From Tubulanus polymorphus (lineage: Eukaryota > Nemertea > Palaeonemertea > Tubulaniformes > Tubulanidae): a stretch of 64,000 nucleotides of DNA. A program made the position numbers and the translations under genes. The number at the start of each line of letters is the position of its first letter. Within the stretch, counting starts at the first letter, position 1. Of the stretch, positions 16,801 through 57,400 are shown one piece after another. Under the pieces are notes generated by a model. It was not told the origin of the DNA, made no database searches, and saw only the letters and a program-made list of their open reading frames with translations. The stretch is from assembly GCF_964204645.1 (NCBI RefSeq), contig NC_134027.1, forward strand, positions 6,374,485-6,438,484, read 5' to 3'.

Positions 16801-16866
16801 TGGGTTAACATTAGTCTTCAGAAATCATGAATAAAAGCTAACTAATCCTTTTTACCACAAAAGCCT

Positions 16867-16926
16867 GCTAAAATACTAGTTTCAACCCCTGTGGTTGCTA
16901 AAATACTAGTTTCAACCCCTGTGGTT
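16867..16926. repeat. 30-bp tandem duplication, two identical copies
   Basis: Two perfect consecutive copies of a 30-bp unit that begins gctaaaatactagtttcaac and ends ccctgtggtt. The copies are identical, so the duplication is recent or maintained. No coding frame is involved. Confidence 0.9.
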
Positions 16927-32240: not shown

Positions 32241-35200
32241 TCACAATGGGGGTAACATTTCCCTTGGTTTCTTTTTCAAATGACTAGAACTCGCTTCATC
32301 TTGTTGAATGCCATCGGCAAATGGATCATGGGTCGGCGGTGTGGGAAGGGTTTCACTTAATTCGTCCGCTGGGAGTTCCATTTCAGGAGGGATCACTGGC
32401 TTCGGATGTTCTTGGACATCAGCTACATTAACATAATAATATGTGATTAACAAAAATATCCCCCGAGAGATTTCGTAAAAAGGTTTGACCGTACATAAGA
32501 GAAACCGAAATAACAGTTGTTTGAATGATATTGTGGGTTTCTCTAAATGATCATATTCATCAAGACTGTGAATAGTCTCAACTATTTTTTCCATTTGCAT
32601 CCACTAAATTATTCATCGGTTTTAAACACATACCGGTACCTGGTGGCTGAGGCAGGACAGCAGGAGGTGGATGAATCACATGGTCAGATGGAACATCAGG
32701 AATGGGAGGCAGATTCTTTCCCGAGGCTTCCTCTGTAGGTTTCCATACTAAACTTTCACCAACGTGTAATGCTGGACCAAGTTTAAAACTCAATTCCATT
32801 ATCTGAACAACATATCGAATAAAATTTTTTTACAATAATTGATCTCATTGCGATATTTCTAAAATCATCAAGACACCGAATATACCTCAGGATCAACATC
32901 TTTACTATTTTCAGTCTTCAGTTTCTGTTCAAATAATGCGTATTGTTTCGTAGCTGCAGATCGTTCACCTTGATTGTACAGAAACACACTGTAGTTCAAA
33001 TGTATAGCAGCTGAGTTCTTCTTACTGAAAGAACATGGAGAAGATTTTATACATGAGAGTTGAACATACAGGAAAAGATTGCGCAACAACTGGGATATGC
33101 AAGTAAACTTACTCATCTAATACTAAAGCTTGCTCATATGCTTGTCTGGCATTTTCTGGATCTTCAAGATGTGTCAAAGCAACTGTAAAAATAGATACAT
33201 AATATTATTCCGAATATAATTAACATAATAAGAATAAAGTTGTAAGAAACAGAGGAGATTGTGTCAGAAATTACCTGCTAATAACATGAAAAGTTGAGCC
33301 ATTTTGGGACGGAGATTGATTGCTGCACTGAGAAAATGGAAAGCGGATGCGTACTGCTGCATGGTGAGATGTAATAGTCCGAGGTTGTATAATATCTTCC
33401 AGTCAAAAGGAGCTAAATAGTTGGCCCTTTTTAAACAGCTTATTGCCTAAATTTTCAAATGAAAAGGAATATCACAGTACATGATACAACAAACTACAAC
33501 AATGTTACCGCTAAATACTTACGGCTACATATTTCTTTTTACCGAAGAAGCACATTCCTATGTTGTTCCACAGAGGAGGACTTTCAGGTGTAGCCTGCGC
33601 AGCTATTCTGTATTTAGTCAAAGCGACATCGAAATCTCCGTGATTCTGCATCATACTCCCAGCAGCGAGGATCGCCTTTACGTGAGTCGGATCGAAGGTG
33701 AGAGCGTTTCCCAAGTTCTCAAATGCTTTTTGAAACTGACCAACCTGAAAGATTTGTCACGAAATCACTCGATGATTGGACTGATATCGAAAACCTAAAT
33801 ATACTTGAAATGAAAACGTAAATGTCAGATGTTGGCTGTTTGTGAATAGAAGAGTGATCTAAGAACATATCTACTGGTACCTGCATGTAGAGCAATCCTA
33901 ATGTTGATAACAGATCTGGATTTTCGGGAGAATATCTATGAATAAAGAAATATTGATAAGTTACAGCTCGGATGAAATCCAATCGCGTAATGATATATTT
34001 ACGATGAAGAATACATACTCAACTGCCCGCCTATAGATATCAATCGCACCGGTTATATCACCTTCATGTAGCAAAATCTTCCCTAACATCATATAAGAAA
34101 GATCGTGCGGATGAAATGATATCGCTTGTGTCAGACATTCTTTAGCCTGAAAGTGATAAATTGAGTGCCATAAAATAGAACATGCAATCACTCAGAATCT
34201 AGAAAAAATATTCATAACGTTACCTTATCTAATTGATTCAAATACATGAAACATACACCTTGATTGTGAGAGATCTCCTGAAAATGTATAAATATATCCA
34301 CTAAAGTCGAACAAAAGCCTACCCGTACTTACAATAAGATATAATAGAACCTGGCACATACCAGAAGGTATGTGAAACTTACCCAATCCTTTTCTGACAT
34401 TTTATTAGCCTCATTGTAAACATCTATTGCTGCTTTATGTCGCGCTAAAAGAAACCTGTAAAATTATAACCACAATTAGAATTATCGATTGATACACGTA
34501 ACCACTGACATTGATACTACTGCTGCTTCACTTACAATGATCTTGCAACTTGTTTTAGATTCTGAGCACTGTTCGGATTCAATAGCGCACATGTTTGGAA
34601 CAACTCGAGAGATTCCTGGATTTTGCCTTCTTGTCGACAGATGAGTGCTGTAAATCAATGAGAGTTTCTATTGAGACATCTTAGTATTGGCCCGTTTACA
34701 GACAGATTTTAACATTCTATTGAACTGGCTCCAGTGTATCCTATTCCTAGATAATGATTTTTCCTGCCTACCTTTGATAAATACAGCATATTCACACATC
34801 CCGTGAGTTTCAGCAATCTGATCTTCAATTATATTTTTACAAGTGCCATATTCTTTTCGGATGAAGTGAAGATGAATGAGCCAATTTCTGCGTTCAAAGA
34901 TTGGAATATCGGGAGCTGAAGGAAATACACCAAAAAATATCATTCAAGCATACAACATTAAGTTGGGCCTTTCCCTTTACGAAAACCTACAAACCTTTTC
35001 CACGCTTCGGTTTTGGTGGGGCAATAACTGGTATAAGTGGGGCAGCCTGAGGAGGTAATCCCACGCTCTCAGCGTCCTTAATCATCTCCATTTTCTATAA
35101 TGAAAAAATAATAAGGCCTAAGTCAATTCTTCAATCCAATCATCAATCACAGATGAAAAGGCAGAAAGAAAAACAAACTGTGTGTGACGTGAGATCATAG

Positions 35201-35824
35201 GCTCCTGCTCGTATTAGAGTTGTAGATTAATGTAAAAACGATAATCTATCAATCCAATGTCTATCAGAGTTGTAGATTAATGTAAAAACGATAATCTATC
35301 AATCCAATGTCTCTTAGTATGTATAGACATTAGATTGATAGATTATCGTTTTTACATTAATCTACAACACTGATGATAGACATTTGGTCTGGATTGATAA
35401 ATTGTCGTTTTTACATTAATCTACAAATACAACTCTGATGCGAGCCCCTGTGCGTGAGACGTATGAAGTAGAGTAAGGACGAACGACTGGTAGGACGGAC
35501 CTGGATAGTCTAGTACCTAGCCGTCGTTCCATAAACAACGGTTGTAGGGAACCGGTGTAACAACGACTGGTTGGTATTATTCAGACACTGCCACTGGCAC
35601 TGCCACCGACGTCGTTGGCTGACACTGACACTGACAGTGGACAAACGAAAACAAGTTACAAATTCAATCGCTACGTTAAACTAATGAATATCAGCGTGGT
35701 TCTAATGAAACTCATTAGTATACTTTACGCAATGGCATTGTAAAATCTCCAACATAAGAATTCACGGCGATTTTCACGTAACAAGTTGAATATTTACCTC
35801 TTCTTTTTTGGAATCCGACGCCAT
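32241..35824 (-). CDS. BBS4: Bardet-Biedl syndrome 4 protein, TPR subunit of the BBSome
   Basis: BBS4 is a subunit of the BBSome, the coat-like complex that moves membrane proteins in and out of cilia; in vertebrates it also links to centriolar satellites. Fourteen coding exons join in frame to 548 aa (human about 519): 35798-35824, 34995-35094, 34772-34915, 34536-34647, 34383-34455, 34224-34277, 34019-34146, 33881-33935, 33523-33744, 33275-33446, 33113-33182, 32886-33024, 32634-32802, 32241-32422. Diagnostic stretches are [17 protein letters not shown] near residue 45, [20 protein letters not shown] and [20 protein letters not shown]-type helices run from about residue 70 to 430; the tail is proline-rich and poorly conserved. 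I start at the ATG in the short first exon (MASDSKKEE), which splices in phase to exon 2; an internal ATG lies at 35091. The exon 13 donor could lie 6 bases earlier. Intron 1 carries a large foldback repeat. Confidence 0.93.
35206..35446. repeat. Foldback repeat: two direct plus two inverted copies
   Basis: Two direct copies of a 50-bp unit start at 35216 and 35266 (agagttgtagattaatgtaa, then aaacgataatctatcaatcc). Two inverted copies follow at about 35328-35388 and 35389-35436, slightly diverged. A short central spacer near 35316-35327 allows a hairpin with arms of about 100 bp. The outermost bases (ctcgtattagagttg against ctcgcatcagagttg) also pair. It lies wholly inside BBS4 intron 1, so the pre-mRNA would contain a long double-stranded stem. 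It may derive from a terminal-inverted-repeat transposon. Confidence 0.92.
35508..35587 (+). repeat. Dispersed short repeat, copy A
   Basis: Shares a region beginning gtctagtacctagccgt and containing ggttgtagggaacc with a second copy at 40157-40225. Both contain a small GGTTCC/GGAACC-type stem or its degenerate form. A weaker relative near 31375-31410 has caacggctgctggggaccgt. Probably a small non-autonomous element of unknown class. Confidence 0.7.
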
Positions 35825-49366: not shown

Positions 49367-51177
49367 TCAATCATCCGCAACTTGCTCCTGCTGCTGATGA
49401 GATGGTTGCCACAGTGGCATCTGCTCAAGGTCATTTCTCAAAATTGTCCTCTTCTCGTCAATTCGCTGCTTTGTCTTAGTTAAAGCTTCATTTTCGTATG
49501 TCAATATTTCGCTGAGATGTAGAAAACGAAACAATTCGATTTTGAGCTTACTCATCTTTCGCAGTGGTTAGTATACCGGCAAAGGTTATTATTCATTTTT
49601 ATAGAATAGGAATAAGAAATCAATATTCAAGATGATTTCATGACTTACAGAACAAGATGCTGTAACTGAGGCGGTAACGCGTGTACTCGATATTTTGCAG
49701 ACTCCTCCAGTTTGATTTGTCCAAGTAGACTTTCAAGTTGGACAATTTGATTCCCGTTCATCATATCTAGAAAATTTAATCATTCTCATACAAACTATTT
49801 TGTTTGTAAATGATTGTACCGAATGGATTACAAATTTACCTTCGCCATCAAAGTTTTGTGAGATTGTTTCAACCTTGTCCAGTTCATTTTCTAAACATTC
49901 ATTTGTCTGCATAAAGAATGAAATATGAATAAGATATAGACCCAAAACTAGATATCAGAGGTTCTAATTCAGCAGCAATTATTTACTTACATAGAATTGT
50001 TTAGCTTCTAATAACTGCATTGCCATTTTGTCGCATCCTTTCTCGAATTCTTTCCTGCAGATAAATGCAAAACACGATTAAACAATAATGATACCTTATT
50101 TGTTTCTCTTCAGCCGGGTAAATTTGGTAAACTTTAATGAAATTTGTTGTAATACTACCGGGTAATGTTAAAAGCTTGATCATGATTTTAAAAGGGTAAT
50201 GCAGTATATAGATGACCGTAGTAAACGTAACAGCTCAGCAGAAATGAGAAACTAGGTACAGTATGAATTTGTTACCCTAACTACCTAGGTAGTCTATTCA
50301 CATGAATTATTTCACAATCTTACAAACCGAGATTGTTCTTTGCGGATCCGCTCTTCTTCGATTTGAGTGTTCAAACTCTCAACTGCATTCCTCTTTTGTT
50401 GAATTGTCTCTTCTGCACTAAAAATCAAGAATTGAACTGAAATTCTACATTCAGCATTTCACAATGGAATGTCTCAAAATAAGCATCATATTAACGATTT
50501 AAAGCATTTACTTTGTGATTTGCTTTTGAATCTGGTCTACTTTATGGTGAGCAACTTTCAACATCTCTGAAAAATTTAATTGCGTTCAAATTTTAATTTC
50601 CTAGTATTACGAATTATTCCTATTAATATCAAACATTAATTCTCTTTATTTGAATAGAAAGAACTAAGATTAAAACCTTCTAACTTTGTATTGATGTCAC
50701 TACTTTGTTGAAACTTCGCTAGGGCTGTAAAATATAATAGACCTATTTTTTGTAATCCGCATACGTATACATTATAGCTTTCAAATTGATGTATTGTTAA
50801 AAAGATTCTCACCGTGCTCATTTTCACTTTCTAGGTCCCTTCTCTTTTGACGAACACTATTCAATTTTTGTTCTAAAGAAGACCTCTCTGGAAAGAAATT
50901 AAGATAAATGGCGAAAAAAATGTGACGCCCGGTATGGGACTCGAACCCAGGACCCTCAGGTTAAAAGCCTGATGCTCTACCGACTGAGCTAACCGGGCAA
51001 CTGAATTTTTATGCCTTAAATATATTACTTCAACCACGATTGTAACACCAGACACCATTATAGCAGATTTGGTGATGCAGACGGGAAAATACCAAGCAAA
51101 CGTACGTAAAACTCACCGTTTTGTAATTCTTTCACGCTATTGAAAATAACATCAACTTTAAAGCTGTTTGGGTCCAT
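49367..51177 (-). CDS. Unassigned coiled-coil protein, 253 aa
   Basis: Nine coding exons join cleanly: 51117-51177, 50813-50887, 50677-50724, 50512-50566, 50328-50417, 49991-50054, 49840-49906, 49649-49766, 49367-49550. The protein starts MDPNSFKVDVIFNSVKELQ. It is mostly charged heptad-like sequence (for example RRDLESENEH, IQQKRNAVESLNTQIEEERI, RKEFEKGCDK) from about residue 20 to 145. A less coiled part (QLESLLGQIKLEESAKYRVH) and a second charged helix near the C-terminus follow. It is similar in size to small coiled-coil proteins such as CCDC172, but I cannot assign it. The last acceptor is unusual: a perfect TACTAAC branch-point word, no pyrimidine tract, and an AG (GATGAG) that keeps the frame; the nearer AG would give an immediate stop. 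Intron 1 contains a tRNA gene. The promoter is shared with APPL, head-to-head. Confidence 0.8.
50914..50920 (-). terminator. Pol III T-run terminator of the tRNA gene
   Basis: Seven T residues on the minus strand, six bases past the 3' end of the tRNA, the usual RNA polymerase III stop. It supports independent transcription of the tRNA within its host intron. Confidence 0.8.
50927..50998 (-). tRNA. tRNA-Lys (anticodon UUU)
   Basis: Seventy-two bases fold as a complete cloverleaf. The acceptor GCCCGGT pairs perfectly with ACCGGGC; the D stem is GCTC/GAGC; the anticodon stem TCAGG/CCTGA surrounds the loop CTTTTAA with anticodon TTT. The T arm has loop TTCGAGT and one mismatched outer pair (C.T) in its stem. 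The A box (TAGCTCAGTCGG) and B box (GGTTCGAGTCC) are good. There is no intron and no encoded CCA. It lies in intron 1 of the coiled-coil gene, on the same strand. Confidence 0.96.
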
Positions 51178-54451: not shown

Positions 54452-57400
54452 TTTACAAACATACTTTTCAGGACTGTGATATTACAAGCTGAAAATGAGA
54501 GAGAACGTGATGAGGTAACGTGGATACAAATTTGTCATTAGCTTTTCTCTTCCATACATTCGAAGTTCCTGATAAAAATGACTTACCGATATATCGCTTG
54601 ATTCAAATTTGTTTTCTTGCAATTTTTTCTATGTCAGTGGATAGCCACGGTGAACAATATTGTTAAAGAGGGAGGATATGTGAAGGATAAAGTTTTGCAG
54701 CCGGTAAAGAAAAGAGTGGCTAGTGTGTCGTCAAAACCAAAACATGACTCGCCAAACGAGGCATCTAGAAGACGTCCACATTCTATTACGTAAGTGGAGA
54801 TTATGAATTGAATAATGATCTGTATGGAAAATCAGAATGGCAATAATATTATGAATTTGTTTAATTTCAGTGGAATTCAGCAATCACATTCTAGTCCCAC
54901 TTCTCCAGACCGGTCACCTGTTGATAATTTTCTATACGGCACTCCGATACAGTTTGATATGATATCACCGAGCGACGAAGGAAAGTCTCTAAATCCTAAG
55001 GAGGGTCCACCTAGGTATGTAACTCGACTTTATAACTCATGTTTTAATGGCAAAACTAATCCAACACAGCTCGAAAGGTTGAAAGGTCAATAATCTGCTA
55101 ATAACTGAATCTACTTCACTGTACATTTTAGCAAGTTTTGATCACGGTTAAATTATTCCCTAAATCTATTTCAATGTACATTAAGCAAGTTAATGATCAT
55201 GATTTAATTATTCCATAGAAGAATTAACCCATTTGATCAGTCGTCCGATGCACTGGCAGAAGAAGGGTCGGAAGAAAAAGAAGCTGCATACTGCCAGACA
55301 TATGTAGTCCGATTTTTGGGTTCAATGGAAGTGGCGGGTGACCGGGGTAAGTATCAGTTAAGTTTCAATATTGAAATAGGTTTCAACATTACGATGTCTT
55401 TATTTGCCATGTCGTACTTTGCAGGTGAAGCACTTGTACACGAGACGATTAGACAGATAATGGCTGCTCGAGCGATTCATAATATATTCAAAATGATGGA
55501 GTCGCATTTGGTTATTACCAATAAGAGTCTAAAACTGTTGGATCCAGCTAATAAGAATGTACGTACAGAATTTGCTTTGGAGGATATTTCTTACTGGTGC
55601 GCTCATAATGAGAACAAGAGGTTTGTAAAGCAAATTTTTGTTTTCATTTGATTCCCTCAGAAGTTCCTGTATATGGAATTCTGTTTGCATGACAACAATA
55701 TTTTGCAGGTTATTTGCCTTCATCACGAGGAACAAAGCAGGTGGTGGAGAACAACCAACTTTTGCGTGTCACGTGTTTGAATGTAATGCAACTGGTGAAG
55801 AGGTCAGTTGTTCTCACATTATTCAAATAGAGATAAATTTGCACCCAGTTTCACAGTTCTGATGAGTTCACATTTGCCTCATTGAAAAATGAACTGATTT
55901 TAACCCGAAGTTTACTGTAATTTACATCTGTGGAACTGGATCCTCGATATAACAAGCTATCGATAAAAACAGATGTATTTACTCGGACACAAGCCCAATC
56001 TATACATATTTTTTCTATATTTTAGATTTGTCAGTCAATAAGTGGCGCTACTAAAGTTGCTTTCCATTCATTAATGGTGAGTACCATAATGATTTTATCA
56101 TCACTTCAGCAACTTTGTGTTATTGCCATTAAGATATGATAGATATCCAATACCACTACTTACATGCACTTCTCTCTCTTTTGCTGTTTTTTAAAAGCCT
56201 AAATTCAACTGCATTTTTACTATTTTTAATTTTTTTTTCATACTTGAATTCTAGCAAACATTACAAGTTTCAGGTACTAAACACGTTTTCATTGTATACT
56301 TCAATACTCATTCTATGTCTTCGGGGACTCTCTTCCTTAATGTATATTGTAATTTGGATGGAGAAATTATTACTTACCGGTAGTTGCCAAATGTGCAGTG
56401 GACTATTTTTATTTTTGACACGGTGTTGGCTGCAGCCTATTGCTTTTATTTGTTCATTATTTCATGCACCAAGTTACTTCACAAAGTAAGCAAGGTGGAG
56501 GAAAGCTGGACTATTAAGTAATATTTTGTCATGAAGGGACAGCTTCAAATGAATTAAGATACTACACTAAAATATCATGTGACTGGCTCCCACTTATTTT
56601 CACTGTACATTCAGTTTTCTATCTAAATAATTGCGCGCTATTTGAAACCTTATGGGAAAAGGTTTTGACTCCCGCTTAATGTGATCACCATCATATTCAC
56701 ATATTTATATCGTTAATATTGAGAAATAAAACCCGAAACTATTTACAATGTATATTCATTTAAAACATATACAGATAACACTACGCTGTTTATCTAATCA
56801 ATTTGCTTTTGATTTGATAATTCGCATATAACTCGTACATATGTGCATGAGTAACTAATAATGGGGTAGAAATTATTCATTTATAGAAATATTTCTTACT
56901 GTATATGTCTTTCTGGATGGAATTTTCAGTCAATTATTCTTTGCATCCAGTATCATTGTTTGTGTTTTGGTAAAGTTTGTTACATCAATAACAATGCTGG
57001 TCTTTACATGATACATACATTAACTTTCTACATATCTTTGTAATGTAAAATCACCATAGTTTCCATTCAATCCTGTTGTCCGTGCCGTGATGCAGGATAA
57101 CAGCAAAGCTCATTCTTCTTTGCATGTTTTCAGTTCATAAACTAGTCTTTCTATAGAATGAATCGTTTTAGGTTGAAGTTCATTTCAGTTTTTACCAAGG
57201 GTTTATTTCAAATTTCAAACAGTCCAACCGCCGCAATTATATTTTGAATGAAAATGTTAAGGCCTTATCTGATCTGAACTAAGTGGAATGGAAGAAAGTA
57301 TATCCATATATATTGACTACAATGCATGCAATATCGTTTTCTGCCAACATGCAAAAAATGAAAATTATCTCACTTTTAGTTCTCTAATGAAGTTATGAAT

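Follow-up and report, generated by a model that had tools for sequence, protein, structure and literature searches.

Origin of a four-unit foldback in intron 1 of Tubulanus polymorphus BBS4: probable duplication of an arm segment within a palindromic mini-transposon

In intron 1 of a BBS4 gene in the nemertean Tubulanus polymorphus, a ~50-bp unit occurs four times, twice in direct and twice in inverted orientation. The locus raises the question of how a single small repeat came to be present four times in this symmetrical order, and whether the resulting hairpin does anything for its host. We addressed both parts using a 64-kb stretch of genomic DNA (hereafter the window, to which all unprefixed coordinates refer) together with searches of the genome. 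The foldback is very probably a palindromic DNA transposon of the non-autonomous, cut-and-paste kind that inserted long ago, i.e. a miniature inverted-repeat transposable element (MITE) with foldback structure, in which half of each arm has been duplicated within the element itself.

The foldback and its host gene

The assignment of the host gene to BBS4 holds, as a minus-strand ORF/exon at 33264-33446 matches human BBS4 in PDB 6xt9 (E = 2.4e-37). Exons 1 to 3 splice in frame into a BBS4-like N-terminal part, with the methionine-bearing coding sequence of exon 1 at 35798-35824 (minus strand), exon 2 at 34995-35094 (minus strand), and exon 3 just below it. This in-frame splice delimits intron 1, which spans 703 bp with GT...AG borders on the minus strand (35095-35797). 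The element is separated from the acceptor by 101 bp and from the donor by 345 bp; because both splice sites were spared, it would have been retained in the intron.

The earlier note described a foldback of four ~50-bp units at 35206-35446. Such a structure is present, and these limits capture its core but stop short at both ends; the whole element, with family termini, a target-site duplication (TSD), and dispersed relatives, occupies 257 bp at 35196-35452. Its left terminus (35196-35211, plus strand) is degraded, reading CATAGGCTCCTGCTCG against the consensus CACAGGGGCTCG. This is followed by unit L1 (35212-35261, plus strand), corresponding to arm positions 13-62, and by its tandem duplicate L2 (35262-35311, plus strand), joined to it at a TAT microhomology. 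The two direct copies are 98% identical (1 difference per 50), and Tandem Repeats Finder reported an array of 50 bp x 2.0 there. A hairpin loop (35312-35322; 11-12 nt between the direct and inverted copies) leads into the inner inverted unit R2 (about 35323-35375, minus strand) and then the outer inverted unit R1 (35376-35440, minus strand). The right terminus (35441-35452) is intact, and its minus strand reads CACAGGGGCTCG. The element is flanked by CGTGAGAT on the left (35188-35195) and CGTGAGAC on the right (35453-35460), which are identical at 7/8 positions.

Among inverted repeats with arms of at least 24 nt and spacing of at most 1.5 kb, the foldback stands alone within the window. The window also contains an exact 30 bp x 2.0 tandem duplication (16866-16926), whose end is CCCCTGTGGT and for which no other likeness to the MITE family was noted, and a small tandem duplication of 55 bp x 1.9 (55108-55214).

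For the minus-strand RNA, which corresponds to the transcribed strand, the predicted structure is a single long hairpin. Its energy was -136 kcal/mol, against -49 +/- 4.5 kcal/mol for shuffled sequences (z = -19), so the stability computed for this RNA is far in excess of chance. No known structured RNA in Rfam matched the foldback site; the sole Rfam match in the window was a tRNA gene (50926-50998, minus strand).

A dispersed transposon family

A search of the genome (268 Mb, 77 contigs) found matches in at least 86 places on at least 11 contigs, a figure that is a lower bound. The relatives are near-perfect palindromes of ~120-190 bp starting CACAGGGGCTCGTATCAGAGTTGTA. This 25-bp terminus occurs exactly 136 times genome-wide (79 + 57) and 250 times when up to one mismatch is allowed, compared with 0 for a reversed control pattern. 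The termini of the window copy belong to this CACAGGGGCTCGTATCAGAG family. Paired ends were present in 35 complete relatives, and 20 of the 35 were flanked by an 8-bp TSD with 0-1 mismatch, for which the chance expectation is ~0.04% per copy; examples include CACGCAGT, CCCGGTAC, GTTTCAGC, and GTTGGAAA. The suggestion that the foldback is the remnant of a transposon with terminal inverted repeats (TIRs) was thus right, given the termini, the 8-bp TSD, and the relatives found by the hundred across the genome.

The family has the features by which MITEs are recognized: common TIRs, a TSD fixed at 8 bp, short length, and no coding capacity. At 257 bp, the window copy is longer than typical members (120-190 bp). 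The family is an ordinary dispersed repeat, and it is the four-unit architecture, not the family, that is local. The family may already carry a name. The element would have no function of its own and would have depended on a transposase supplied in trans.

Longer members of ~0.5-1.2 kb have their first ~80 arm bases in common with the short ones, and their arms reach up to ~515 bp. Four members of ~1.2 kb carry the family ends (L089, L090, L097, and L046). The first three of these consist of ~515-bp arms around a short centre and are thus true foldbacks within the family, and L089 has no ORF longer than 76 aa. L071 and L073 carry a ~154-bp repeat (CAACGCCCCCTGGTGACCATAT...) in tandem arrays from ~1535 onward, inserted inside the arm after arm position ~35. 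Three further members (L065, L080, and L088) have similar flanks and occupy the same spot within another repeat, which was probably amplified after the insertion.

Genome searches found no autonomous partner with the family ends. The exact terminus was absent within 9.9 kb of the listed transposase hits (79 with a hAT-dimerisation domain and 20 with a P-type RNaseH domain), a comparison made by script for contigs C1-C7 and by eye against the lists for the remaining contigs. The family terminus was likewise absent from the 3' flanks of four hAT-domain hits and from the flanks read around one P-type transposase hit. The 8-bp TSD fits the hAT and P superfamilies alike, so the family may belong to either. 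P elements have TIRs matching CANRG.

One candidate for an autonomous element, with ~9.2 kb between matching ends (C4:10820461-10829714), was rejected; it is a ~1.2-kb family member split by an unrelated transposon of ~8 kb, which has TAGGTAT ends of its own and a duplication of 7 bp, CCCTCGA. This nested transposon (L091:1024-9034, contig C4) has several near-identical and many distant copies and contains ORFs of 560, 381, and 105 aa. No convincing match to the three was found in Pfam, none to the 560- and 381-aa ORFs in NCBIfam, and none to the 560-aa ORF among PDB sequences. It may hold an uncharacterised transposase.

Given that the hairpin lies in a transcribed intron, its strong predicted fold (z = -19) and the hundreds of near-identical targets in the genome would fit a different account of its persistence: the hairpin would be retained because dsRNA from the BBS4 intron serves as a substrate for ADAR editing, or yields on dicing siRNAs that act on the family. 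The dsRNA idea is structurally plausible. However, the divergence of the copy from the consensus, the degradation of its left terminus, and the indels in its right arm are what neutral decay predicts, and we regard retention for such a role as very unlikely. Nothing in our results supports a role for the element, whose arms are decaying separately, or points to editing, siRNA production, or fragility of the site. What looks remarkable in a ciliary gene, a long hairpin, is explained as ordinary transposon debris, and it would gain greater importance only if RNA data showed dsRNA to come from intronic copies of this kind.

Growth of the arms from one unit to two

We surveyed the architecture of 61 distinct loci and found that one unit per arm is standard (26 complete copies of form [ab]). 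Extra units were present in the window copy and L003 alone, and the four-unit form was found at no other surveyed locus. The window copy carries arm positions 13-62 twice in tandem on each side, and both tandem pairs are joined at the same point. On the left, arm positions 8-65 run straight into 13-75 with a 3-nt TAT overlap, TAT being present at arm positions 13-15 and 63-65. The right junction is the mirror image of the left, plus 3 bp.

The units also have a substitution history in common. All four contain a TATTAA to TATCAA substitution atop the change from TGTTAA to TATTAA that is seen in a minor subfamily, and the only exact matches in the assembly to a 22-mer with TATCAATCC lie in the window element, other genomic matches being without one of the two changes. 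Since this private substitution is common to the four units, and since the arms of most relatives diverged independently, the units derive from one arm of this element. In the alignment, L1 has one private substitution and L2 none, R2 has two and a 3-bp indel (an insertion at the junction), and R1 has three and two 6-bp insertions. Between units, the left arm differs by ~1 substitution and the right arm by 5 substitutions and 3 indels, which are too few differences for a firm ordering of the duplication steps. The earlier note had proposed stepwise growth of the array; duplication is supported by the private substitution and the common junction, while the stepwise part is not established by so few differences.

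The inner pair of units by itself looks like a normal palindrome, and two family members lie side by side at L018, so another member of the family might have landed in the loop of an existing one. Such an insertion should have brought its own ends, but the inner pair begins at arm position 13 without the 12 terminal bases CACAGGGGCTCG on either side, no 8-bp TSD surrounds it, and a 3-bp microhomology marks the junction instead. The private substitution common to all four units also speaks against a separate arrival. We rejected MITE-in-MITE nesting, which is highly improbable, on the lack of termini and TSD.

Palindromes are difficult for assembly, and reads collapsed or duplicated at this one could in principle have generated extra units. 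The units are nevertheless distinct by substitutions and indels, and a proper TSD flanks the element, which makes an assembly artefact extremely improbable. A purely local duplication of unique intron DNA with no transposon link has practically no probability, as the unit and both termini are dispersed genome-wide with TSDs at unrelated sites, even though the four-unit order is seen only here.

Duplication within a single element is the best account. We infer that a tandem unit would have arisen in one arm in one duplication event, with the 3-bp TAT microhomology as the site of either replication slippage or a template switch, and that the duplicated segment would next have been copied into the opposite arm. 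This copying probably occurred either in a hairpin formed by the folded palindrome or through gap repair that used the other arm as template. A general homogenisation of arms after insertion was considered and is unsupported, as in 28 of 35 copies an arm of another element was closer than the partner arm.

Other members of the family show rearrangements of their own. L003:1494-1676 starts with one full arm, continues with a short piece in reverse and then part of a second arm, and finishes with the opposite arm, an order that template switching within the palindrome could produce. In L077, 24 bp of an arm are duplicated separately. At L066:1500-1678, the arms are at least 9 changes from all other sampled copies and only 1 from each other, a pattern that suggests that one arm was copied from the other.

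A broader proposal is that palindromic mini-transposons lengthen themselves in discrete steps, by a slip followed by hairpin-templated repair. The four-unit window copy (A A A' A') could then be a snapshot of the process, as could L003 (with an extra partial central pair) and L077, and a longer hairpin in an expressed intron could feed dsRNA directed at the entire family. We consider this generalization unlikely and put it forward as a speculation.

Comparison with known elements

The family resembles MITEs of the superfamilies with 8-bp TSDs, which are likewise short and non-coding, have inverted arms, reach high copy number, and lie in or near genes. The window copy differs from typical MITEs in having one extra tandem unit per arm. 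It is a small, clean case of foldback arms growing together, for which the precedent lies in much longer Drosophila elements.

The first of these is Galileo, a Drosophila element of the P superfamily with long foldback arms and TSDs of 7-8 bp, whose TIRs have grown longer through direct tandem repeats within them, in some cases on both sides, and for which sequence exchange between arms has been proposed (PMC4168063, PMC3573991). The window copy has this trait in the form of a 50-bp tandem duplicate with a mirrored junction in both arms; the likeness is one of architecture only, and we claim no sequence kinship. Galileo differs in that its arms measure hundreds to thousands of bp, its repeats are 140-210 bp, and transposase-bearing copies are known (PMC4168063, PMC3573991).

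The second is Tetris of Drosophila virilis, a foldback element whose arms contain tandem repeats and whose ends are shared with the short MITE DAIBAM; an autonomous copy was not found there either (PMC4079207). The present family is similar to the Tetris/DAIBAM pair in that its 120-190-bp and ~1.2-kb members have common ends. Tetris differs in its TSD of 8-10 bp, its placement with Mutator, and its ~220-bp repeats, which have grown into a satellite (PMC4079207).
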